A stretch of DNA of 25,467 nt from positions 1 to 25,467 of IMG/VR virus record IMGVR_UViG_3300023180_000362; one strand, 5' to 3'. Every line of letters starts with the position of its first letter. Position 1 is the stretch's first letter. A program made the position numbers and the translations under genes. Source of the DNA: a virus. Below, in pieces: positions 12,293-25,467 of the stretch. The notes under the pieces were generated by a model that saw nothing but the letters and a program-made list of their open reading frames with translations, ran no database searches and had not been told where the DNA came from.

Positions 12293-15133
12293 TTAGAAGG
12301 TGCTTAGTGCAACTCTCTTCCAAGTATCTGTTGCAACACAGATATAAATGTATGAGCTATCATAACGAATATCACCAGCAGTTCCTGTATCTGAAGAAGA
12401 AGTCGGAGCAGTTCCTTCGAGCTTAATTTCACCAGCAACTTCACCGACACAGTCGATAGAAGCCACCTCAAGTGCGCCAACTTCCATAGCTGCTGGAGTG
12501 TATGACCCAACAGTAGTTGTAGGCTCACCAGTAGAGGTGAATGCGATGAATTTGTCTGTGCTCTCATCGAATGCCACACCAGCGAATCCATTACTTCCAC
12601 CGATACCATCACCACGTTGTCCATAGAATCCGATATCTTCAAGGTCAGTGTTATTTACACCTAATTCGATAAGGTTATCACTGAAGGTAACGTTAGCACC
12701 TGTTGCAGTAAGACCACTTGCAGAGATATTACCCGTGATTGTCGCATTACCACCAACTGTAAGACCGCTACCAACATCAAGGTTAGTTGTGATATTCACA
12801 GAATCTGGAAGACCGAATGTGAATTTATTAATTGAAGGAGAGTAAGCAACATCAACCTCATTTGATGTTCCACCGAAATATACTGTGCTTCCAAGTGCAA
12901 GTGCTTCACTATTACCACTAACGTCTGCGAAAGTAATACCACTGTTAGCAAGCATTGAGTTATCTACTGAGCCAGATTGGATAGTCGCAGTTAAAGTCGC
13001 ATCTGCACTTCCGTCGATACTAACCGAACCACCTAAATCTCCACCAAGTGTAATTGTTCTTGAAGAAGCCCAAGCACTTGCTGTAGAAGCGTTTCCATTT
13101 ACTGCTGCTGTGATTGTTGAAGGAAGACCGATGGTGAATACACCACCTGCATTAGAAACCTCAACTTCATTCGATGTTCCTCCGATAGTTAAGCTTCCAC
13201 CAAGAGAAATGTTTGTAGGTGTGCCAACATTATCATCAACAGAAATAACACTGTTTGCCAACATCGCATTTGAAATAGCGCCGTTTGCGATACTTGAAGT
13301 TAAGCTAACTGCACCTGTTCCATCAAAGCTAACTGCTGAAGCAGTAACTGGACCACTACCAATGCTAAAGTTCTGTGAAGAAGCTAAAGCAGTTGCAGTT
13401 GCAGCATTTCCAGAAGTATCAACGTTAATTGTTGAAGGAAGACTGAAGGTAAGGTCATTACCAGCAGCACTGTATGCGATATCGATTTGGCTTGAAGTTC
13501 CATTAAAGTCAAGAGACTGACCTAAGTTAATGTCCTCTTGTGCCGTTCCATTAAGTGATAGTCCCCATCCGTCATTTGCTAACATCGCGTTAGAGATTGC
13601 TCCGTTTGCGATAGCTGAAGTTAGAACGACGTTTCCGGTGCCGTCGAATGAAGCAGCTGCTGCTGTAACAGGACCAGAAAGGATTGAGAATGTTCTTGAA
13701 GTTTCAAGTGCAGTAGCAGTCGCTGCATTACCACTTGTATCATTCTGAATTGTAGAAGGAAGACCGATAGTGAATGTTCCATTACTTTCAGCAACTTCAA
13801 CTTCGTTTGCTGTTCCTTGGATTGTTAAACTTCCACCGAGAGCGATAGCAGATGTATTACTTCCATCACCGAATGTAATAGAAGAATTAGCTAATTTACT
13901 ATTTGCAACACTTCCTGTAGTAATAGAAGCAGCGAGCGCGACGTTTCCTGTTCCGTCATACGAAACACCAGTAGCAGTTACCTCAGAGCCTGTAATTGAG
14001 AAAGTTCTTGCAGTCTCTTGTGCGGTAGCTGTTGCTGCGTTTCCACTTGTATCAACATTGATTGTTGATGGTAAGCTGAAGGTAAGGTCGTTGTTTGCTC
14101 CACTATAAGTAATAGCAACTTGACTTGCTGTTCCATTAAAGTCTAAACTATCACCAAGTGCGATAGCCTCACCACCGGTCCCATCAACTGTAAGAGTCCA
14201 ACCACTATTAACAAGCATTGAATTCTCAACTGAAGAAGATTGAATGGTCGCTGTTAGAGTAGCATCTGCGCTACCATCAATACTAACAGACCCGCCTAAA
14301 TCACCTCCGAGTGAAAGAGTTCTTGCAGACTGCCAAGCAGAAGCGGTCGAAGCATTACCAGTAAGAGCACCGGTAAATCCAGTAGCAGATACAGAAGTTA
14401 GACCACTGATTGTTGATGGTAATCCGATTGTAAATTCACCAGGAGAGTATGAAACTTCAACTTCGTTAGCTGTTCCTCCGATTTCGAGTGTGTTACCTAA
14501 ATTAATGATTGCAGGAGTTCCACCACTTTGACCAACGTAAAGTCCTGGATTCTGAATCATTGAGTTTTCAACAGCTTGAGACCCGATAGTAATAGCGATA
14601 TCTGCATCTGCACTACCGTCAAATGAAACGCTACCACTTGCATCACCAGAGATACTTAGTGTTCTTGATGTTTCAAGAGCAGAAGCAGTATCAGCATTAC
14701 CAGTTAATGCACCAGTAATATTACCGTCAAGGTCAGCAACGATTGTTGCTTTGTTTCCTGCTGAAAGTGTTGGAAGAGTTGTTGAAGGCTCTGTTTGTAA
14801 ATCTTTTACAAGATAGAATTTACCGTCGTCAGCATCTCTTGCTAAACCATGGTAATATGTTGTGGCTCCACTAACAGTTTGTCCATAGAAACCAACGTCA
14901 ATCGCATCACCAGTATTTCCTCTGGCAAGTTTGATAAGTGGGTCTTGTGCCTCAACTGTAGAGACCTGAAGAGAAGTTTGTGTGCCGGTAACTGTTAGAT
15001 TACCTTGAATTTCTACGTTGCCGGATGTTGTCATTGTCTCGGCTTGGACATCACCGACGTGGAGTGTGCTCCATTTAATCGAGCTTGTTCCTAAGTCGTG
15101 TCCTTTATTTGAATCTGGTCTTAATGCAGACAT
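12293..15133 (-). CDS. Repetitive tail fibre or baseplate structural protein, 946 residues
   Basis: The core holds six repeats of about 105 residues, each running GNAxTAxA, a strand with xSRTxSI, SFDGxGxV, NxMLAN, GGTxNEVEVxY and xFTIGLPSTI. The flanks are related to each other: DVGFYGQ...GLARDADDGKFYLV near residue 80 and DIGFYGQ...GVAFDESTDKFIAF near 830. The C-terminus ends GDIRYDSSYIYICVATDTWK, a motif frequent in phage fibre and virion proteins. The Gly/Ser/Thr/Ala-rich beta composition and repeats fit a long trimeric fibre that contacts the host. The SD AAAGGAAAAAATT and a TATAAATA promoter precede it. No fibre chaperone gene is seen nearby. Confidence 0.7.
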   Translation of the reverse strand: MSALRPDSNKGHDLGTSSIKWSTLHVGDVQAETMTTSGNVEIQGNLTVTGTQTSLQVSTVEAQDPLIKLARGNTGDAIDVGFYGQTVSGATTYYHGLARDADDGKFYLVKDLQTEPSTTLPTLSAGNKATIVADLDGNITGALTGNADTASALETSRTLSISGDASGSVSFDGSADADIAITIGSQAVENSMIQNPGLYVGQSGGTPAIINLGNTLEIGGTANEVEVSYSPGEFTIGLPSTISGLTSVSATGFTGALTGNASTASAWQSARTLSLGGDLGGSVSIDGSADATLTATIQSSSVENSMLVNSGWTLTVDGTGGEAIALGDSLDFNGTASQVAITYSGANNDLTFSLPSTINVDTSGNAATATAQETARTFSITGSEVTATGVSYDGTGNVALAASITTGSVANSKLANSSITFGDGSNTSAIALGGSLTIQGTANEVEVAESNGTFTIGLPSTIQNDTSGNAATATALETSRTFSILSGPVTAAAASFDGTGNVVLTSAIANGAISNAMLANDGWGLSLNGTAQEDINLGQSLDFNGTSSQIDIAYSAAGNDLTFSLPSTINVDTSGNAATATALASSQNFSIGSGPVTASAVSFDGTGAVSLTSSIANGAISNAMLANSVISVDDNVGTPTNISLGGSLTIGGTSNEVEVSNAGGVFTIGLPSTITAAVNGNASTASAWASSRTITLGGDLGGSVSIDGSADATLTATIQSGSVDNSMLANSGITFADVSGNSEALALGSTVYFGGTSNEVDVAYSPSINKFTFGLPDSVNITTNLDVGSGLTVGGNATITGNISASGLTATGANVTFSDNLIELGVNNTDLEDIGFYGQRGDGIGGSNGFAGVAFDESTDKFIAFTSTGEPTTTVGSYTPAAMEVGALEVASIDCVGEVAGEIKLEGTAPTSSSDTGTAGDIRYDSSYIYICVATDTWKRVALSTF

Positions 15134-15166
15134 AATTTTTTCCTTTCATAGTGCTATCTATGTGCG

Positions 15167-15174
15167 TATTTATA
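15167..15174 (-). promoter_or_regulatory. T4-late-type promoter before the 946-residue fibre gene
   Basis: CTGTATAAATACG lies 34 nt upstream of the fibre ATG and downstream of a terminator, so the fibre gene has its own late start. The core matches the element at 41-48 over CTGTATAAATAC. Confidence 0.55.
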
Positions 15175-15261
15175 CAGTTTTGATAAATCTCTTTAGATGC
15201 AATGCTTGTAATTCTATATATTAAGCAAAATATGTTTTTCGTTAAATTATTTTGAGGTCTT

Positions 15262-15298
15262 TTCTCAAACATACATTATTATATATGCAGTTTGAGAA
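15262..15298. repeat. Perfect 9-bp inverted repeat around a TA-rich loop
   Basis: TTCTCAAAC (15262-15270) and GTTTGAGAA (15290-15298) are exact inverted copies. The 19-nt loop contains CATATATAATAAT on the minus strand, the same 13-mer as between the repeats at 9156-9168. It could be a protein-binding operator or an RNA hairpin in the gap between the two fibre genes. Confidence 0.5.
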
Positions 15299-15310
15299 GT
15301 TTTTACAGAT

Positions 15311-15338
15311 AAAAAACGTGATAGGTGTATGACCTATC
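15311..15338 (-). terminator. Intrinsic terminator after the 1374-residue fibre gene
   Basis: On the minus strand GATAGGT-CATAC-ACCTATC forms a 7-bp perfect stem with a 5-nt loop, starting 9 nt after the stop codon and followed by ACGTTTTTT. This is a textbook rho-independent shape. Confidence 0.8.
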
Positions 15339-15346
15339 TATAACTC

Positions 15347-18300
15347 TTAGGCGTATTTACCTTTGAAGATAACGTCTCCAGTTGTTGGATGGACGTCAAA
15401 GTGTCGGTCTCCATCTCTTTCAGCGACTGTATCATACATGATTAAGTCTGTTGTTGCTGAAGAAGAAGCAACCAAAGCTCTGATATATCCATTTGCTCCA
15501 CCTAATTTAACTTCGAATGGACCGATATGTGATTTGAAATCTTCCAATGCGAATCCGTAATAAACTTCATCGTTATTAGAATCATCCATCCATAATCCAC
15601 CACCAGCTTGCTCGATTTGAGTTAATCTTAAATCAAGTGCTGAAACTGTAGTTGAATTAGCTTTAGTAGCAATGTTATCAGCATTTGTTTTGACCTGAGT
15701 ATCAAGAGCAGTAATCTCTCCAACAACGTTAGTTGCACTGTCGAGATAGTTTGTTCCACTTCTTGAAACATAATCACCATTGCTTGCGAGACCAACACCA
15801 GTTTGTGTATCATCTAATTCAGTCTGGAGAGCAGCAATGTTTGAGCTTCCCAATGAAGAGATAGATGAAGCATTCGAACTAACTTGTGTATCAAGCGCTT
15901 CGATAGCAGCTTTAAGTGAAGAAGCAGAGCCAATGTAGTTTGTAGAACTAAATGTTCCTAACAAACCTGTTGAGCCACTTCCAACCGTTCCACGTAAATT
16001 ATCCTGAACATCTCTTAAGTATTTCTGATTTGTATCAAGTGTATCTAAAGCTGCAACAACAGTTGATGATGAGTTTAGATAGTTTGTTCCAGTAATACTT
16101 AAGCTTCCGTCTGGTTGTAATCCAACACTCGCTTCAACAGTATCGATTTTACCACTTAGAGTTGTATCATCTGCTGCTCTTGTTGTCGCTTCAGAATCTA
16201 TATTATCCTGACGTGATTTAATCGCAGCATCTAATAACTCTATAGCACCCTTGATAGTTGTTGCAGAGTTGATGTAATTCTGACCACTGAAGGAAGAGAA
16301 TGTTCCATCACTTGCTAATCCAACCGCAGTTTCAACAGAATCAACTTCTGTTTGAAGCGCAGAAACACTACTTGAAGAAGCCTTAAGTGCTATTGCGTCC
16401 GCATTCGTTTTAACTTGTGCGTCCAACAGAGTAGCTTCTCCAACAACAGATGAAGCAGTATCAAGGTAATTACTTCCACTTCGACCAACATAAGCACCAG
16501 CAGTTGATAATCCAACACTTGCCTCAATAGTATCAATCGCAGAAACGTTAGTCGCGATATCTGTATCATTTGATGCAATATTATCTGCATTTGTTTTAAC
16601 CTGAGTATCTATACCACTAACTGCACCCTTTAGAGTTGAAGCAGTGTTATAGTTTCCAGTCAATGCAGTATAACTTCCATCAGAATTTAATCCAACACCA
16701 GTTTCTATCGCATCAACTTCAGTTTGTAATGCAGAAACTGTAGATGAAGAAGCTTTAGTAGCAACATCACTTTGTAGAGATGAGATATCAGAATCATTAC
16801 TTGCGATATTATCTGCGTTAGTCTTAATTTGAGTATCTAATGCATCATCAGCTGCTTTCAGAGAAGAAACTGAAGAAATGTAATTAGCACCTGAGTTAGC
16901 AACATATGCTCCAGCAGAAGTAAGTCCTGCACCAGTTTGTGTAGCATCAACCTCACTCTGAAGAGTTGAGATAGTGCTATTTACTGAAGAGATAGCAGAA
17001 GCACGTGTTGTTGATTCCGCAGAGATAGCATCAGCATTAGTTTTAACCTGCGCATCTAATTTATCATCTGCATCTTTAAGACTTGTCGCAGCTGTAAGGT
17101 AATTACTTGAAGAATTAGCTGAATAAGCTCCTGTTGAGGATAAACCTGCTCCGGTCTGTGTATCATCTAATTCAGTTTGAATACCACTTAATCCACTTCC
17201 ACCACTAAGAGCAGCAATGTCTGAAGCATTAACTGCGATAGCGTCTGCATTTGTCTTAATCTGTGTATCTAATAAACTATCAGCACCCTTCAATGAAGTT
17301 GCAGTGCTTAGGTAATTAGAAGAAGTTGGTGCAGAGTAAGCACCTGCTGAAGATAATCCTGCTCCAGTTTGAGTTGCATCTAACTCAGATTGAAGTGCAG
17401 TTGTAACCGAAGTATCAGCTTTTCCACTCTGTAAAGAAGAAATATCTGAATCATTAGATTGTATAGCTGAAAGGTTTGCTGCGATATCTGAAGTATTTTG
17501 TGAAATATCACTTTGTGCAGTTGAGATATCAGATTCATTAGTAGAAACACGAGATGTTAATGAAGTTAAATCACTTGAAGAAGCCTTAAGTGCAATGTTA
17601 TCTGCATTTGTTTTAATCTGTGCGTCAAGTTTATTATCAGCATCTTTTAACGAAGTTGCAGCAGTTAAGTAATTACTTCCACTATTCGCAGCGTAAGCAC
17701 CAGTTGTTCCTAATCCTGCTCCTAATTGAGTTGCATCTACTTCACTCTGTAATGATGCGATATCCGAAGCATTTGAAGAACTTCCACTTGTTAAAGTAGA
17801 AACAGTAGAAGAAAGATTAGAAATATCACCAGCATTCGTAGAAACTTGAGTATCGAGAGCATTAATTTCTCCTCTAACCGAAGTCGCAGACTGGATATAG
17901 TTTCCTCCGGAGTTAGCAGTGAAAGACCCGTCTGAATTAATCCCAATAGATGTCTGAGTTGTATCAACTTCAGATTGAAGAGTAGATACAGAAGTCGAAG
18001 AAGCTTTACCACTAACATCACTTTGGAGTGTTGCGATAGCAGCTTCTGCAGTATCTAAATCACTTTGTGTAGTATCTAATTGAACGTCAAGAGCATTAAT
18101 CTCACCTCTAACAGAAGTTGCTGTTGAAATGTAATTACCAGATGTATTTGCTGAGAAAGACCCATCTGCATTAATACCGACACTTGCTTCGATAGCATCA
18201 ACTTCTGATTGGTTAGGAGCACCTGTCTGAAGATTAGAAACGGTTGTCTCTAATGTATCAAGGTCATCCTGAGTTGATTTAAGTTGTGTATCTAATTGTC

Positions 18301-19471
18301 CGACAGCAGCTTTAAGAGTTGATGACGACGTCGCATAATTTGCTCCACTAATCGCAGAATAACTCCCGTCAGTATTTAATCCGACTGAAGCTTCGATAGT
18401 ATCTATAGCAGAAACATTGGCTGCGATATCTGTGTCGTTAGATGAGATAGCGTCTGCATTACTTTTAACTTGTGTATCTAACGCAGTAATTTCACCAACA
18501 ATACTTGTTGCACTGCCAAGATAATTTGTTGAAGTGCTTCGTGAAACATATGTCCCAGTTGAAGAAAGTCCAACAGCAGTATTCTGCGCTGTATTATCAG
18601 ACTGTGCTTGGACTGCCACACCATTTACTGTAAGAATGTCAGAAGCATTTCCTGATACTTGACCATCTAATGCTTCAATAGCACCTTTAATAGATGCAGA
18701 TGCAGAGTAGTAATTAGTCGAAGCCCATGTTCCTAAAGTCCCATCAGTCTGAAGACCAACTGCTGATTGAGTATCGTCTAATTCTGATTGAAGAGCTGTA
18801 ATAGCTGAAGAACTTCCGAGACCCGCAATAGCAGCAGTATTTGTTGCGACCTGTGAATCAACACCTTCAACAGCTTCTTTGATTGTCGCAGAAGCTGAAT
18901 AATAATTTGTATTTGCCCAAGTTCCTAACGTTCCATCTGTTTGTAATCCGACAGAAGCTTGAGTATCATCTAATTCTGACTGAAGATTAGCAATAGTTTG
19001 GGAAGTTCCCATTGTCGCAATTGCTGCAGTATTTATAGCGATTTGTGCGTCTAATAAACTATCAGCATCTTTTAATGAAGTTGCTCCGGATAGATAATTC
19101 GAAGTTGAAGGCGCAGTATATGACCCGTCGCTTGCTAATCCAGCTCCAGTTTGTGTGTCATCAATCTCTGTTTGAAGACCACCGATATTACCACCTGCAA
19201 GAGTATTGATTTGTGTCTGTAAATCTGCAAGTTCTGTATTAACTGTAGCGAAGAAGTTGGCATCATCATTCATTGCTGCGGCTAACTCGTTGAGCGTATC
19301 TAACGCGGCAGGAGCTCCATCAACAAGTGCGTCGAGAGCGGCTTTTAGTCCAGCAGGTGTAACTGCTAAGTCATCTCTGAGTCCGTCAGAAGCTTCTACG
19401 TCGGTGGAGAGCCTAACTGGACCCGCGAGGGAGGTAGAGCCTGTTGTCTTTTTGCTTGTTAAAATTGCCAT
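15347..19471 (-). CDS. Giant repetitive fibre protein, 1374 residues
   Basis: The N-terminal region contains DGAPAALDTLNELAAAMNDD (about 52-71), a motif common in tail fibre N-termini. About 17 degenerate repeats of about 65-70 residues follow, each with TQTGAGLxxxGxY, SxxNYLxxATSL and LDxQIKTNADxI. The repeats alternate a short beta loop with a helical heptad stretch, so a long trimeric coiled-coil shaft is likely. The last 105 residues are non-repetitive (GGGLWMDDSNNDEVYYG to HFDVHPTTGDVIFKGKYA) and may be the tip. The SD AAGGAATTAATTTAAA supports the start. The repeats are also similar at DNA level and could change number by recombination. Adhesion is inferred; no carbohydrate-binding or enzyme domain is visible. 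Confidence 0.72.
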   Translation of the reverse strand: MAILTSKKTTGSTSLAGPVRLSTDVEASDGLRDDLAVTPAGLKAALDALVDGAPAALDTLNELAAAMNDDANFFATVNTELADLQTQINTLAGGNIGGLQTEIDDTQTGAGLASDGSYTAPSTSNYLSGATSLKDADSLLDAQIAINTAAIATMGTSQTIANLQSELDDTQASVGLQTDGTLGTWANTNYYSASATIKEAVEGVDSQVATNTAAIAGLGSSSAITALQSELDDTQSAVGLQTDGTLGTWASTNYYSASASIKGAIEALDGQVSGNASDILTVNGVAVQAQSDNTAQNTAVGLSSTGTYVSRSTSTNYLGSATSIVGEITALDTQVKSNADAISSNDTDIAANVSAIDTIEASVGLNTDGSYSAISGANYATSSSTLKAAVGQLDTQLKSTQDDLDTLETTVSNLQTGAPNQSEVDAIEASVGINADGSFSANTSGNYISTATSVRGEINALDVQLDTTQSDLDTAEAAIATLQSDVSGKASSTSVSTLQSEVDTTQTSIGINSDGSFTANSGGNYIQSATSVRGEINALDTQVSTNAGDISNLSSTVSTLTSGSSSNASDIASLQSEVDATQLGAGLGTTGAYAANSGSNYLTAATSLKDADNKLDAQIKTNADNIALKASSSDLTSLTSRVSTNESDISTAQSDISQNTSDIAANLSAIQSNDSDISSLQSGKADTSVTTALQSELDATQTGAGLSSAGAYSAPTSSNYLSTATSLKGADSLLDTQIKTNADAIAVNASDIAALSGGSGLSGIQTELDDTQTGAGLSSTGAYSANSSSNYLTAATSLKDADDKLDAQVKTNADAISAESTTRASAISSVNSTISTLQSEVDATQTGAGLTSAGAYVANSGANYISSVSSLKAADDALDTQIKTNADNIASNDSDISSLQSDVATKASSSTVSALQTEVDAIETGVGLNSDGSYTALTGNYNTASTLKGAVSGIDTQVKTNADNIASNDTDIATNVSAIDTIEASVGLSTAGAYVGRSGSNYLDTASSVVGEATLLDAQVKTNADAIALKASSSSVSALQTEVDSVETAVGLASDGTFSSFSGQNYINSATTIKGAIELLDAAIKSRQDNIDSEATTRAADDTTLSGKIDTVEASVGLQPDGSLSITGTNYLNSSSTVVAALDTLDTNQKYLRDVQDNLRGTVGSGSTGLLGTFSSTNYIGSASSLKAAIEALDTQVSSNASSISSLGSSNIAALQTELDDTQTGVGLASNGDYVSRSGTNYLDSATNVVGEITALDTQVKTNADNIATKANSTTVSALDLRLTQIEQAGGGLWMDDSNNDEVYYGFALEDFKSHIGPFEVKLGGANGYIRALVASSSATTDLIMYDTVAERDGDRHFDVHPTTGDVIFKGKYA

Positions 19472-20366: not shown

Positions 20367-20630
20367 ATGAGTAAAAATAAATATGTTGTTGATGAAGATT
20401 ATGTCCCATATAAAAATGTCGCTGAGAAGGCAACTGAAATGGGTTATAAAATGAATACTGCAACTGCGAGACATGTGTTTTATCGTGGATTAGAAAAAGT
20501 TGCATACGGTATGTTAGTTGATAGTGGTATGTTCAGTCCATCAGAAGCTAAAGAAAAATGTAAAGAAGTGGCTAAATCTATTCACTTTCAACATGTAATT
20601 AGAGACATTATGGACGAATCAATCGAATAA
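20367..20630 (+). CDS. Lone plus-strand small protein, possible helix-turn-helix
   Basis: This 87-residue protein has the excellent SD AGAGGAGAGTTT and is the only gene read left to right. Residues 13-50 (PYKNVAEKATEMGYKMNTATARHVFYRGLEKVA) have the spacing of a helix-turn-helix: a helix, a short turn at GYKMN, then a basic recognition-like helix, as in small sigma region 4 or repressor-like proteins. The second half is helical and charged. Its last 12 nt overlap the 3' end of the terminase gene, tail to tail. Transcription against the main late direction suggests different timing, perhaps early, and a regulatory job. The DNA-binding role is inferred and no family is recognised. Confidence 0.65.
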   Translation: MSKNKYVVDEDYVPYKNVAEKATEMGYKMNTATARHVFYRGLEKVAYGMLVDSGMFSPSEAKEKCKEVAKSIHFQHVIRDIMDESIE

Positions 20631-22307
20631 ACCTGTAAAACGACTTGCGAATGGGTCGTCAGAATCAAACTTCTCAGTTTTGGTAATTCCTATTCCTCTC
20701 AATGCTTCTGTTATAACATCGTTATTAGTTTCTTCTTCAACTATATTTCCCATATGGTCGAGAACTTTGTTTCCAACGGCAATAACGTATGTATTCCCTA
20801 CTTTCTTTACTGCATCTAATGCATGGACTAATGAAGTTAATGTATCATCATGAGCAGCGCGTGGATATCCGACAGCTTCATCACACATTATATCTATTTT
20901 CTTTTGACAGTAATTATCACCATAAGGTAATCTAATCAATTGATTTTCAAATAAAACGGCGATATGATGGATTGAATTACGTAAAGCATTTTTTGCTGTC
21001 ATAACAACAGGTTTGACTGGTAATGATGTTTTCTGAAGTTGTTGAACATATAACGCACCGAAAGAATTTTTTTCTACCCATATTTCTTTAACATAATCAG
21101 ACCATTTCTCATACATAGAAACTATTGCATCCATAATCTGTTGTTGTGTTATACCACGTTCATGAAACATATCTAAAATCCATATAACACCATTTTTATC
21201 TCTTGCTAAAGTCCAACCACAGGTATAATCCGTATCTTTGGTTTGGGCTTTCTTTTTATCTCCTTCAATAGATAAATCCCAACCACATACTACTGTGCAT
21301 TCTTCTAAATTTATAGGAGGATTTAAATCAAAAGAATAACTACTTCTTTTAGCTATATCTACCCAATCTCTTTTAATTATTGCATCATCTTCAGATTGGA
21401 CTTGATTCTGCATCTCTCTTGCGAAAAGATGAGAACCCATACTTCTTCTTTCCATAAGTAAATATTCTATAGGTCTAAATTCAGGCCATAGGACTTGATA
21501 TTCCCCTTTAACTGAAACTTTATCTAAGTATTCATTGCCTTTATCATCTACTTTTGTTACGTAATCATAACTTTCTGGCCACTGAAGGATTGCGTTATCT
21601 TCGATTACTCTGTAAGTTGGGTCAGTTTTCATATGTGCATAAACATCTTGTTCGTGTTTTCTTGTCCCAATTACTAACATCATTCCACCTTGATTCAGAA
21701 TAGGTGTTACTGTCGCAGCTAACCAATCTCTTGTTTTCTGTCGAACACCTGGAGAAGCTGTAGTTAAATCATCTTCTAAGTCGTCAATAACAACAACATC
21801 CACGTGCGCTCCTGTTATTTTACCACCACTACCAATAGCTTCTAAGGTCGGGTCTACGCCTGTTCCGTCTCTTTTAACGTATAACTGTGTTGATGTCCAT
21901 TTAGTATCTTCACCTTTAAACGTCGGAATATCCTCACCGTTTGCCCAATCTTCTTTTATTTTATCAGAATCAAGGAATTGTTTTATTAATCTAACTCTCT
22001 TTTCTGCCTGACCTGCAGATGCTGAAATAAATAGGATTGATACGTTTCTATTCATACAGATTTGTCGGACACAATAACTAATCGCAAGTAATGATTTACC
22101 ATGACCACGAGGTGCCAAAACTAATAATTTCTGTTTTTCATTAGTTTCTTCCGCTTTTTTTTGCATCTCTTCAATAGTATTTATCCAGTTATTTCTATGG
22201 TCAGCTGCTTGCATTCCAAGATAATATGAGTCGAAGAATACAGGAGAAGCTATAGATAAAGCTCTTCTACCTTCAGAAGAAGCTAATAACTCGGATATAT
22301 TAGTCAT
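20619..22307 (-). CDS. Terminase large subunit
   Basis: This 562-residue ATP-driven packaging motor and nuclease has Walker A (APRGHGKS, 65-72), Walker B (VVVIDDLED, 171-179), a coupling motif (VIGTR, 212-216) and an RNase H-like nuclease with Asp344 (CGWDLSIEGD), Glu412 (WVEKNS) and Asp487-Asp488 (AAHDDTLTSLVHALDA). I chose the ATG at 22307: it has GAGG at good spacing and overlaps the stop of the NUMOD-like gene by 8 nt. The alternative GTG at 22349 would add 14 residues unlike a terminase start. No small terminase subunit was found in the window. It may lie outside or be one of the unassigned ORFs. Confidence 0.92.
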   Translation of the reverse strand: MTNISELLASSEGRRALSIASPVFFDSYYLGMQAADHRNNWINTIEEMQKKAEETNEKQKLLVLAPRGHGKSLLAISYCVRQICMNRNVSILFISASAGQAEKRVRLIKQFLDSDKIKEDWANGEDIPTFKGEDTKWTSTQLYVKRDGTGVDPTLEAIGSGGKITGAHVDVVVIDDLEDDLTTASPGVRQKTRDWLAATVTPILNQGGMMLVIGTRKHEQDVYAHMKTDPTYRVIEDNAILQWPESYDYVTKVDDKGNEYLDKVSVKGEYQVLWPEFRPIEYLLMERRSMGSHLFAREMQNQVQSEDDAIIKRDWVDIAKRSSYSFDLNPPINLEECTVVCGWDLSIEGDKKKAQTKDTDYTCGWTLARDKNGVIWILDMFHERGITQQQIMDAIVSMYEKWSDYVKEIWVEKNSFGALYVQQLQKTSLPVKPVVMTAKNALRNSIHHIAVLFENQLIRLPYGDNYCQKKIDIMCDEAVGYPRAAHDDTLTSLVHALDAVKKVGNTYVIAVGNKVLDHMGNIVEEETNNDVITEALRGIGITKTEKFDSDDPFASRFTGLFD

Positions 22308-22683
22308 TACAACCTCGTTTTGGACAACTTCCGATGTATTTATCTCCACAATGGAAACATGTTTTCTGATTCAGATGAGATAGAGTTCCGAATTCCCACC
22401 CTTGGTCTAACCATTTATCAACAGTTGATGTCAGTTTATGCATATGTATTGTTCCATCATTCATATAAACTCTATTACTTTTAAAAAACCATCCTTTATC
22501 TAAGTAATCTGAAATATCTTCATAACTAACTTTATGTTGAGCTCCGTCTTTAACCATCTTAACACCTCTAACAGATTTAGAGTTTTTCTCAGAAATAGCT
22601 TTTTTAGTTTCTAAGGTATGTGTATTCCCAGTATTACAACGTGAGATATGGTCCTTTTGTGCTTGTGTTAATGTTCTTCTCAT
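22300..22683 (-). CDS. NUMOD-like protein with C-terminal zinc-knuckle-like motif
   Basis: This 127-residue protein has an N-terminal block (THTLETKKAISEKNSKSVRGVKMVKDG, about 21-47) like the NUMOD-type DNA-binding helices found at the ends of GIY-YIG and HNH homing endonucleases. It is followed by two copies of a tail-associated motif, YLDKGWFF (61-68) and WLDQGWEFG (90-98). No HNH or GIY-YIG catalytic block is present. The end, CFHCGDKYIGSCPKRGC (about 109-125), has four cysteines as a possible zinc knuckle. The SD AGGAGAGACATATT is strong, and the stop overlaps the terminase ATG. It could be a remnant of a homing endonuclease or a recruited DNA-binding factor for terminase. A small-terminase-like role is possible but unproven. 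Confidence 0.55.
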   Translation of the reverse strand: MRRTLTQAQKDHISRCNTGNTHTLETKKAISEKNSKSVRGVKMVKDGAQHKVSYEDISDYLDKGWFFKSNRVYMNDGTIHMHKLTSTVDKWLDQGWEFGTLSHLNQKTCFHCGDKYIGSCPKRGCND

Positions 22684-22721: not shown

Positions 22722-24101
22722 TTACAGTGTATTAATTTTTACGTTAAAATTGATTTTTTTATTCGGTAATTCGGTCATTATAACTCCATCGTGTCTCCAA
22801 CAAAGTAAATTATCCCAACCTCCACAGGCATCAATAATCGTTTCAGTTCGATTCACTTCTTCGTTATAGATAACGTTATATACTTCTTCACCTAATAAGT
22901 TTTTGAGGTCTTTTAATAAGGAATTAAATCCTTGAACGATTTTCCATAAAGCTGGATGACGTTTTGCATGGTATTGATTAATATGACCATAACATGTTGA
23001 GAGAATACAACGTGTTTTAACAGTATTCTTTCTCATTTTAGCTTCTATACAGATTTGATTAATTATTTCATCTTTATTAGAGATATATTCATTTACGTCT
23101 TTATTAAAGATTCCGAATTCTCCAGCTAAGTCTCTGATAATGGTTGGATGAGATGTTGATTGGTCGATTTCATATCCATTACCCCTAAAAAGTGTTTTAA
23201 GAATAGATGAAGAGAAATTCTGTAAGGTCATGCCGACTGAAAAGAAACGGCCACATGATGTTTTACGGTAAAAGTCAATATAATAACCACCATTACTGTA
23301 AATCTCATTACAATAATCTCTCATTCTTTCGATATGTAATAATCTTCCTCTTCTCTTAAGAGGAGTTTTTAATCTTTCAGCACCCTTTTCAAGAGTATTT
23401 AATTTCTTTAAACATCTTTCAATCCATTTAGTTGGAGCCTTTTGTAAGATTCCATAGATGTTATTCGTTGTTCCTCTGTTTTCATTTCTTTCTACATCTA
23501 ATATATTACCACCATTGATGCAAACCTGTTTAACAGAAGTCAAACCGTATAGTGGAATCGAACCCTTCTCAGACTTTTTATTCCAAGAAATTCCTTTGAT
23601 TCCCTCAGTTAATAAAACTTCTTTCCAATTACGTCCTTCAACTCCCATATAGTTTTCTAATCTAATAGCTTCCCATAGAAGTGGGTGTAAGTCGTATGTA
23701 GATTTACAAGAAGTGCTACTTGTTATGCTACTTGGTGAATGGTATTTGTATGAATTATCTCTCTTAAGAAAAGTATTCATTAAAACATTTTCCATACGTC
23801 CATTAGTTGTATAATTACCTTTTGAATTTTTAGGTTCTTTGCCTCTGAAACGACTGATAAATGTGTAAATATATTCGTTTGAGATTGCCCAAGTATCTTT
23901 ATTAATTGTATGTTGGTGGTCAATTGATATTGTTGTAGCAACAGCTTTAATGAATCCTTGAATATAAAGTTTTGTATTAGATTCACTCATTGAGAGTTTT
24001 TTAGATTTATCTAATACTAATTTATACATCTCCTCAACAATTCTTTCAGCTTCTAATGTTTTCACCTCGTTCTGTGTGAAATTAAAATTTAGATGTGTCA
24101 T
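22722..24101 (-). CDS. Compact superfamily A-like polymerase (DNA polymerase / single-subunit RNAP type)
   Basis: The C-terminal half of this 459-residue protein has polymerase landmarks in the right order: GRFFSVGMTLQN (284-295), like the TGRLSS...LQN block of family A; EIDQSTSHPTI (311-321), like motif A with catalytic Asp313; RKNTVKTRCILSTCYG (357-372), like the O-helix/motif B R-K-YG pattern; and CWRHDGVIM (434-442), like motif C with His437-Asp438. The residue at the ribose-gate position is His318, not the Gly of T7-type RNA polymerases. The N-terminal 200 residues are helical and unassigned, and no 3'-5' exonuclease or helicase motif is seen. In organisation it recalls the TV-Pol lineage described from mobile elements and Sputnik-like viruses. 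The SD GGGAGATAAAT supports the start. An in-frame copy of the dispersed repeat codes for a Ser-rich stretch at 122-131. Confidence 0.6.
   Translation of the reverse strand: MTHLNFNFTQNEVKTLEAERIVEEMYKLVLDKSKKLSMSESNTKLYIQGFIKAVATTISIDHQHTINKDTWAISNEYIYTFISRFRGKEPKNSKGNYTTNGRMENVLMNTFLKRDNSYKYHSPSSITSSTSCKSTYDLHPLLWEAIRLENYMGVEGRNWKEVLLTEGIKGISWNKKSEKGSIPLYGLTSVKQVCINGGNILDVERNENRGTTNNIYGILQKAPTKWIERCLKKLNTLEKGAERLKTPLKRRGRLLHIERMRDYCNEIYSNGGYYIDFYRKTSCGRFFSVGMTLQNFSSSILKTLFRGNGYEIDQSTSHPTIIRDLAGEFGIFNKDVNEYISNKDEIINQICIEAKMRKNTVKTRCILSTCYGHINQYHAKRHPALWKIVQGFNSLLKDLKNLLGEEVYNVIYNEEVNRTETIIDACGGWDNLLCWRHDGVIMTELPNKKINFNVKINTL
23716..23738. repeat. Dispersed repeat, copy C (inside the polymerase-like gene)
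   Basis: The minus strand carries AAGTAGCATAACAAGTAGCA here, sharing 16 exact bases with copies A and B, and a TACCAT stands just before it, as in those copies. It lies in frame and codes for a Ser/Thr-rich stretch. The 12-mer AAGTAGCATAAC is itself partly repeated, so it is iteron-like. Confidence 0.7.
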
Positions 24102-24116
24102 ATTTATCTCCCTGTT

Positions 24117-24145
24117 TATATATATTATGTAAAGTTAGAAACTTG
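24117..24145 (-). promoter_or_regulatory. Shared upstream element of the polymerase-like gene
   Basis: The minus strand reads CAAGTTTC-N6-TACATAATATATATA, the same as at 24723-24751 with no gaps (23 fixed positions). CATAAT could be the -10 box, giving a short leader with the SD before the ATG at 24101. The CAAGTTTC box is upstream of the -10, roughly where an activator of a middle promoter would bind. Confidence 0.45.
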
Positions 24146-24168
24146 TATAATTTTTTTTGATTATTTTT

Positions 24169-24687
24169 TTAGCATGTTTCCCAATCGATGTAAAATCCTT
24201 TCGTAATAACCTCATCCCATTCATTACTATAACTGTCGTAGCTGAAAATTAACGGACAATCTTCTTCAATATCCTTAGGCATATCAGATAATTTACCTTG
24301 CCATACGATATCGTCCCATTGTGGCTGAAAATCATATGAAATATTATCTAAATAATCAACCATCATCTGTCTTGAGAAAGAAGCAGAATATTCACAGTCA
24401 TCATCGTCTTTATTTCTCCATACGATAACTTCGCAATCTTTTAATTCACAACCAACCAAAGCATTTACTGCAAGTTTTTGCCATTCTGTAATCTCTTCTA
24501 ACTTAGAGTTTTTCCATGCAATAACTTCATCAGAATTCGGTCCCCATGAATCATATCTTTCAGCAATTTCATCATTTATAATCTTCATCATTGGTGCATA
24601 AAGATTCCATACAGCAAGATTTCTTCTTGCATTATCTTCAGTATTTTCAGTAATTAAGTTAGCATTTAGTGTTTGGATGTAATTCAT
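24169..24687 (-). CDS. Acidic hypothetical protein, 172 residues
   Basis: I do not recognise a family. The protein is strongly acidic along its whole length (for example NKDDDDCEYSASF near 111-123 and MPKDIEEDCPL near 155-165) and rich in Trp and Tyr (about ten Trp). There is no signal peptide or membrane segment. Such composition occurs in DNA-mimic anti-restriction proteins (Ocr- and ArdA-like), but no family signature is visible and the idea is only compositional. The SD AAAGGAACTTGTT supports the start. It has the same upstream element as the next gene, so the two are probably switched on together. Confidence 0.6.
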   Translation of the reverse strand: MNYIQTLNANLITENTEDNARRNLAVWNLYAPMMKIINDEIAERYDSWGPNSDEVIAWKNSKLEEITEWQKLAVNALVGCELKDCEVIVWRNKDDDDCEYSASFSRQMMVDYLDNISYDFQPQWDDIVWQGKLSDMPKDIEEDCPLIFSYDSYSNEWDEVITKGFYIDWETC

Positions 24688-24722: not shown

Positions 24723-24751
24723 TATATATATTATGTATTATAGGAAACTTG
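24723..24751 (-). promoter_or_regulatory. Shared upstream element of the acidic-protein gene
   Basis: The sequence CAAGTTTC-N6-TACATAATATATATA lies 35 nt before the ATG at 24687 and downstream of an intrinsic terminator, where a new promoter is needed. It matches the element at 24117-24145 without gaps. Confidence 0.45.
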
Positions 24752-24793
24752 GAAAAAAATTACACTTTTTTTTAAATTTTTTTTTATTCTAAT

Positions 24794-25028: not shown

Positions 25029-25467
25029 TTAATCCAATAATTCATCTGCTTCAGAAGCTAAACGACTTCTATAACCTTTAGTAAAGTGTATATGGCCGGA
25101 TAACTTGCTCTTTTTAAATCTATCTGAAACTATTGTAAGTCCGTTTGAAGATTCGTTTAAATAAACTGTATCGATTTGTTTCGTATCACCTATTAAAACT
25201 ATTTTAGAGTGTTCAGCAACACGAGTAATTATTGTTTTTAACTCATGAATAGTTGCATTCTGGGATTCATCAACAATAATAAAACAATTCTTTAAACTTC
25301 TACCACGAATAAATGAAATAGGAGCAATATCTATCTGACCTTTATCTCTCATAATATGATAATAATCTAAATTACCGAAAGCATTCTGAAAATTATCTTC
25401 TATAGGAGCGAGATAAGGTGCATATTTTTCATCAATGTCGCCGGGGAGGAACCCCAGCCCTTTATCT
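25029..25467 (-). CDS. phoH: PhoH-like P-loop ATPase (partial, N-terminus outside the window)
   Basis: The last 145 residues are present and the frame stays open to the right edge, well upstream of the internal Met at 25352. Diagnostic pieces are GLGFLPGD and EKYAPYLAPIEDNF at the start, SFIRGRSLKNCFIIVDESQN (Walker B, with Ser in place of the usual Ala), and KIVLIGDTKQID. The Walker A motif must lie outside. PhoH proteins are RNA/NTP-handling ATPases that are widespread in phages, especially marine ones, and their exact phage role is unsettled. The end is short and acidic (ASEADELLD). Confidence 0.88.
   Translation of the reverse strand, partial: DKGLGFLPGDIDEKYAPYLAPIEDNFQNAFGNLDYYHIMRDKGQIDIAPISFIRGRSLKNCFIIVDESQNATIHELKTIITRVAEHSKIVLIGDTKQIDTVYLNESSNGLTIVSDRFKKSKLSGHIHFTKGYRSRLASEADELLD

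Follow-up and report, generated by a model that had tools for sequence, protein, structure and literature searches.

A Compact A-Family-Like Polymerase Next to the Terminase Gene of an Uncultured Tailed Phage, a Possible Primase-Polymerase of the TV-Pol/divPolA2 Branch

Locus and Gene Neighborhood

The window analyzed here is the whole stretch of 25,467 bases of an IMG/VR virus record from an uncultured tailed phage. The features at its right end, all on the minus strand, are as follows.

20619–22349, minus strand: terminase large subunit, TerL (PHROG 38, E 1.7e-82; 74–80% identity in relatives; last syntenic gene)
22300–22683, minus strand: NUMOD3-like protein of 127 aa between the polymerase and TerL, with a weak homing-endonuclease accessory motif (Pfam NUMOD3 E 0.015; PHROG homing endonuclease E 0.0022)
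22722–24101, minus strand: compact A-family-like (TV-Pol/divPolA2-like) polymerase of 459 aa (ORF; hhalign match; rank 2 of 124 proteins; Pol I-like core model)
22776–22799, minus strand: motif C, residues 435–442, WRHDGVIM, including H437 and D438 (both residues unchanged across the 57 sequences aligned; a hairpin in the model)
22986–23033, minus strand: finger helix/motif B region, residues 357–372, RKNTVKTRCILSTCYG (region of the R...K column of TV-Pols, one residue out of register)
23115–23258, minus strand: putative template-arginine hairpin, conserved Gln and motif A, residues 282–329, SCGRFFSVGMTLQNF...GYEIDQSTSHPTIIRDLAGEF, including D313 (the stretch aligning to the TV-Pol/divPolA2 profile)
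23487–24101, minus strand: N-terminal 205 residues of the polymerase, with no detectable relatives (helical in a low-confidence model)
24117–24150, minus strand: promoter-like 34-nt element of putative function upstream of the polymerase gene
24169–24687, minus strand: co-oriented neighbor of 172 aa, an ORF with no family in library searches
24723–24756, minus strand: repeat occurrence of the 34-nt element, preceding the 172-aa gene (the pair 79% identical)
25029–25467, minus strand: PhoH-like ATPase carrying a PIN domain and truncated at the window end (from a whole-ORF scan on contig L002)

The polymerase frame of 459 codons occupies exactly 22722–24101 of the minus strand (the plus strand is closed there), starts with ATG preceded by GGGAG, a ribosome-binding-like site, and runs in the same direction as almost all other genes of the window. 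A second IMG/VR contig carries an identical copy of the ORF within a region of 99.93% identity over 10,257 bases. The motif set comprises GR284–285, Q294–N295, Asp313, a K-rich finger helix and His437–Asp438; the original prediction of a 459-residue protein, made without naming the strand, had placed every one of its named residues correctly. Its motif B (R/K...YG) fared less evenly, since the finger-helix region does contain R357, K362 and Y371 but with a spacing one residue off: K362 lies nine (not eight) residues ahead of Y371, and R357 five (not four) residues ahead of K362, leaving R357-x4-K362 or K358-x3-K362 as alternatives. Judged by sequence, motif B is the weakest of the polymerase motifs and is degenerate. 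The position of the dNTP-selecting glutamate of Pol I (D+5) is taken by His318.

Upstream of the polymerase gene (at higher coordinates) the order is the 172-aa ORF, a 72-aa ORF and the PhoH-like ATPase, and downstream of it the NUMOD3-like ORF and then TerL. Library searches gave no family for the 72-aa ORF, as for the 172-aa one, and no helicase, resolvase, integrase or transposase partner was found within the window. With TerL and PhoH as neighbors, the polymerase does lie beside the terminase and outside a replication cluster, as had been proposed.

The 34-nt element, composed of CAAGTTTC, 8 nt and ACATAATATATATA, probably represents a promoter shared by the polymerase and 172-aa genes, judging from its two positions; no further copies occur in the window or in the examined relatives. 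No recurrent promoter-like motif in the window intergenic regions stood out clearly beyond AT-rich shuffles, and direct or inverted repeats flanking the polymerase gene were limited to weak AT-rich pairs.

Two further observations concern the region to the left of TerL. The near-identical contig L002 encodes a GIY-YIG endonuclease ORF (L002:10912–11262) of which the window keeps only the first codons (15134–15346); the two sequences part at window position 15211, reflecting the presence or absence of a homing-type gene. Between the portal and TerL lie two very long, repetitive fiber-like proteins of 1374 and 946 aa (15347–19471 and 12293–15133, respectively), both built of imperfect coding repeats of 60–100 nt.

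Remote Homology to the TV-Pol/divPolA2 Branch

Conventional searches with the polymerase yielded no significant match in Pfam, PHROG, NCBIfam or PDB sequences, tblastn matched nothing in 50,697 phage and 72,556 plasmid records, and sequence-profile comparison with PF00476 and with the T7 enzymes was likewise blank. Neither an exonuclease nor a helicase is recognized by domain searches, in agreement with the original prediction.

A test profile was assembled from 13 sequences in public records (10 phage divPolA2 and three plasmid TV-Pols). Single-sequence hhalign of the window polymerase against it gave E 8.7e-5 (score 41.9; hhalign E-values here refer to single comparisons) over residues 282–329, a stretch in which the GR hairpin, Q294 and motif A all lie. 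Of 300 shuffled sequences, none did better than E 0.0026 (score 31.5); reversing the protein gave E 0.35. When 124 proteins of related and other phage contigs were ranked against the profile, the window polymerase came second after a genuine divPolA2, followed at ranks 3 and 4 by homologs from two related phages over the same profile columns, with the best unrelated protein at E 0.053. Against a profile of divPolA2 alone the match was E 9.6e-5 over 47 columns (tblastn to divPolA2 being blank), and against 79 bacterial TV-Pols alone it was weak (E 0.068); the affinity is therefore mainly to the phage branch. Confident homology covers 46 columns; the fingers and the N-terminus fall outside the confirmed part.

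A core alignment of 57 sequences (residues 206–459 of the window polymerase, three phage relatives and 53 TV-Pols) contains four invariant columns, which are exactly Q294, D313, H437 and D438. D313 and H437–D438 align to the invariant D and HD of 53–68 TV-Pols, and GR284–285 to a GR present in all 68, after which the invariant Q294 follows. The motif A sequence DQSTSHP had been singled out as unlike standard forms; yet its D-x4-H form is ordinary in the TV-Pol branch, with H in 52 of 68. Profile A8 finds the polymerases at E 1e-34 to 1e-41, but these belong to the A8 alignment and such self-matches were therefore left out of the evidence; against PDB sequences A8 matched none.

Overall, we consider it highly probable that the window protein is a TV-Pol/divPolA2-like A-family polymerase. 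Profile homology and motif set together bear out the earlier assignment to a compact palm of the PolA/T7 RNAP superfamily, and the TV-Pol-like option, one of three offered at the time, is the one to which the profile match points.

Two other searches are recorded here. A consensus for bacterial TV-Pols matched plasmid TV-Pols as well as the phage divPolA2 set (e.g., L031:25469–26761 of Vibrio phage 1.063.O). Scanning IMG/VR with the motif pattern QN...D....HP...HDG returned 117 stretches, only two of which contained an ORF with the right spacing; both were discarded as chance-like.

Predicted Structure of the Polymerase Core

A first AlphaFold model, based on four sequences, was set aside (pLDDT 34). 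The core model reached pLDDT 61 overall and 75–88 over the palm (pTM 0.56), and presents, in order, a strand ending at D313, a helix, helical fingers, a long helix and a hairpin with HD437–438. D313 is the last residue of its strand (core model residues 105–108), and HD437–438 occupies the turn of a beta hairpin (227–231/234–237). The finger region is of low confidence, and possible thumb helices ahead of the palm (core 18–36 and 52–64) reach a pLDDT of only 35–56.

In a VIA-align comparison, the nine best solved structures were all A-family DNA polymerases, with 204–218 residues aligned and Z-scores of 4.2–5.7, a range in which values can be unspecific (KlenTaq 5.7 over 218 residues, Klenow 5.3, phiVC8 DpoZ 4.5). 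No RNA polymerase entries appeared among the structural matches. Foldseek of the core model against PDB and BFVD gave no match with E < 0.001, a result with which the fold is still compatible. The modeled core appears to resemble the Pol I thumb-palm-fingers layout. As to the expectation that Asp313 and Asp438 would lie adjacent in a right-hand fold, only the outline agrees (strand end, hairpin turn and Pol I matches), while Foldseek remained blank. Since TV-Pols are present in the alignment behind the model, it is consistent with the assignment rather than independent proof of it.

Related Phages and the Region Beyond the Terminase

Three related contigs were obtained via TerL (74–80% identity) and a fourth via a homolog search. 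Three of these four encode, near TerL, a protein of 330–336 aa with an equivalent motif set (FR...Q...R..LF.G...D....H/F/N...AK.YRC.L...IHDG), and the remaining one (L003) ends 2.1 kb upstream of TerL. The three proteins are 44–65% identical among themselves, and direct BLAST comparison with the window polymerase shows no link (E 0.17); the window polymerase and all three retain the catalytic aspartates together with the Gln and the His of motif C. A scan for the relatives' WFD.LH.EIE helix returned only the three contigs already known, and nine contigs of more distant phages (TerL 41–47% identical) have no such polymerase near TerL, where the contigs reach it.

All genes tested, starting at the left window end and running up to TerL, match the 62-kb relative G004 at 33–79% identity and in the same order, with the exception of a small plus-strand ORF (20367–20630). 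The five genes beyond TerL (NUMOD3-like, polymerase, 172-aa, 72-aa and PhoH) have no match in G004 or the other relatives tested. From these comparisons it looks as if the polymerase had been exchanged for a distant relative while its neighbors stayed, an exchange of a kind reported for ordinary phage DNA polymerases (PMC11348598).

Other genes accompany the polymerase in the relatives. Directly after it lies a small beta-rich ORF (L004:5008–5352, L016:8993–9226 and L008:4001–4267, minus) with the pattern RGGELI.W...SIFVS...DS..GG..WE..TDG, which overlaps the polymerase by stop/start in two of the three. By analogy, it might be a candidate partner like the MP of CcPol-MP; it is absent beside the window polymerase, and small ORFs of this kind are frequent in phage genomes. 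Near the polymerase the relatives also encode a conserved protein (L004:2516–3274, L008:7322–8071 and L016:6396–7178) of about 250 aa that includes an HTH-like stretch and is separated from the polymerase by a Zn-ribbon ORF in L004 and L016; it is unnamed in libraries and is probably the small terminase.

The ends of the 62,095-bp G004 contig abut inside TerL with one base missing, and the contig therefore very probably represents the whole genome, either circular or circularly permuted. Neither G004 nor the 52-kb relative matched Pfam DNA_pol_A, DNA_pol_B, DNA_pol3_alpha or DnaB_C, and in the G004 searches positive controls were detected each time. The 42 scanned, mainly non-structural ORFs of G004 include a RecU-like resolvase, methyltransferases, a GIY-YIG protein and an endolysin, and no helicase or primase; its only recognizable polymerase is the 336-aa homolog. 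The original prediction had located the main polymerase of the phage presumably elsewhere. For the lineage this is unsupported, given an apparently complete G004 without PolA, PolB, PolC or DnaB; the window phage genome is itself incomplete, and the absence result applies to the relatives.

Discussion

Our preferred reading, held tentatively and with somewhat less than even confidence, is that the window polymerase acts as a primase-polymerase for phage DNA. A-family palms join nucleotides via two Asp-bound metals. By the proposed mechanism, a minimal A-family palm polymerase without an exonuclease, from the TV-Pol/divPolA2 branch, would use two metal ions on Asp313 and Asp438 to polymerize nucleotides along phage DNA as template. 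Template contact would come from Arg285 in the hairpin, and the incoming triphosphate would be bound by the Lys-rich helix near residue 362. Synthesis of the first primers, or of a short stretch, would take place either at an origin of the phage or on intermediates of recombination, with extension left to replisome proteins of the host. Catalysis, priming, the choice between dNTPs and NTPs and the recruitment of host proteins are all parts of this scheme that we infer.

The primase-polymerase reading is favored by controlled remote homology, by four invariant columns that are all active-site positions, by the Pol I-like core model, by the occurrence in G004 of the 336-aa homolog alone, and by TV-Pol precedents. 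A primase-polymerase function was predicted for TV-Pols (PMC2579912), and one of them, CcPol, starts synthesis de novo when paired with MP (PMC10061031, which describes the finding originally reported in PMC7581432). Several points count against priming: the window and G004 lack a helicase partner, with which known priming TV-Pols travel; the CcPol primase needs an SSB-like partner, and none is evident beside the window gene; motif B is degenerate, and His318 takes the site of the dNTP-selecting glutamate of Pol I. The 46-column extent of confident homology and the dependence of the model on TV-Pols weigh in the same direction.

A less probable role, though the foremost alternative, is that of a repair or gap-filling DNA polymerase that extends existing 3' ends, in recombination-dependent replication or in end repair before packaging, without priming. 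The closest phage family by profile, divPolA2, lies in variable neighborhoods beside a regular replicase, and either DNA repair or RNA synthesis has been suggested as its task (PMC11348598); the location beside terminase and PhoH rather than in a replication cluster, and the RecU-like resolvases of the relatives, also fit this role. The barbavirus division of labor fails, however, for the apparently complete G004, which has no recognizable regular replicase. A single-subunit RNA polymerase with T7 RNAP-like chemistry, serving a subset of phage genes, is improbable in our estimate and less likely than a primase-polymerase. T7 RNA polymerase also lacks the steric-gate glutamate (having Gly), and in the window polymerase it is missing at D+5; yet the His found instead is usual in TV-Pols at this position. 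The 34-nt element ahead of the polymerase gene and its neighbor would fit such a role, but it has only two copies and none in the relatives, and no intergenic motif rises clearly above AT-rich shuffles in the window, itself a genome fragment. Besides DNA polymerases, mitochondrial RNA polymerase was among the matches of divPolA2 models (PMC11348598), whereas the window protein is shorter than known single-subunit enzymes, leaves the T7 RNAP profile unmatched and has no RNA polymerase among its structural matches.

Slightly more improbable still is a polymerase of a mobile element or homing cassette that landed beside the terminase, by analogy with transposon-borne TV-Pols. Synteny with three relatives ends exactly at TerL with the five genes beyond it unmatched, the NUMOD3-like ORF adjoins the polymerase, and a homing-type endonuclease is present or absent between near-identical copies of the window phage; against this, no resolvase, integrase or transposase adjoins the gene, flanking repeats are only weak AT-rich pairs, and this neighborhood harbors a different compact polymerase in the relatives, which points to a phage function. 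Least likely of all, and very unlikely, is a palm protein without catalytic activity that acts structurally or as a regulator, comparable to the RRM-only proteins beside some SCC-like elements. Degenerate motif B and the precedent of five putative Pol proteins without catalytic aspartates (PMC10061031) agree with such a role, but neither this protein nor any of the three phage relatives has lost either aspartate, the Gln or the His of motif C.

TV-Pol, divPolA2 and the PolA-SSB primases are known already; the novelty lies in a branch that has diverged further and belongs to a phage lineage not described before, in which it may be the sole polymerase. This extends the smallest known A-family polymerase branch to that lineage, which is seemingly without another polymerase of its own, so that the priming proposal becomes testable without phage-encoded alternatives. 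The polymerase is missed by Pfam, PHROG and NCBIfam, and small phages scored as having no polymerase may thus hide one. A bolder and rather doubtful proposal is that a tailed-phage lineage replicates its 50–60 kb genome with a helicase-free A-family palm of 330–460 residues as sole polymerase, priming and perhaps copying with host factors, and that this palm is swapped for a distant form while the terminase stays 74–80% identical.

Comparison With Known Systems

By sequence, a single family seems to include both TV-Pol and divPolA2, though the literature separates them. Carriers of divPolA2 among Caudoviricetes include Rheinheimera barbaviruses, Vibrio phages 1.063.O and ICP1, and Aeromonas and Pseudoalteromonas phages (PMC11348598); PHROG 4756 is the divPolA2 of Vibrio phage 1.063.O. 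This family, of about 430 aa and thus similar in length to the window polymerase, gives the best profile match and shares with it palm motifs of the GR...Q...D...HD type, an unrelated N-terminal part and the lack of an exonuclease and of a recognized thumb. It differs by the lack of BLAST-level similarity and by motif A, which is D-QSTS-HP in the window polymerase; moreover, barbaviruses encode a regular DNA polymerase next to their divPolA2, and none is recognizable in the relative G004.

With TV-Pols the window polymerase shares the compact A-family core, the active-site Q, D and H-D and the D-x4-H motif A. TV-Pols are frequently associated with a D5-like helicase or a resolvase, integrase or transposase, although stand-alone forms exist; their fingers carry a conserved aspartate and R-x3-K, their thumb consists of two antiparallel helices ahead of the palm, and the template arginine of their beta-hairpin is absolutely conserved (Iyer 2008, PMC2579912). 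By contrast, the window polymerase has no D5-like helicase, resolvase or transposase partner, and its finger R-x3-K motif is out of register; among the non-structural ORFs of G004, none of the D5-like helicase, resolvase, integrase or transposase type was found except the RecU-like junction resolvase.

The CcPol-MP (PolA-SSB) primases of SCC elements share a reduced-size A-family core, which in their case primes (PMC7581432, PMC10061031). CcPol, however, keeps part of the exonuclease domain, and the window gene has the NUMOD3-like, TerL, 172-aa and 72-aa ORFs as neighbors, with no helicase and no recognized SSB partner beside it. Compared with Pol I, T7 DNA polymerase and T7 RNA polymerase, the window polymerase has no recognized exonuclease domain and the steric-gate Glu of DYSQIE is replaced, but the order of motifs is the same and the modeled thumb-palm-fingers layout appears to be shared with them.
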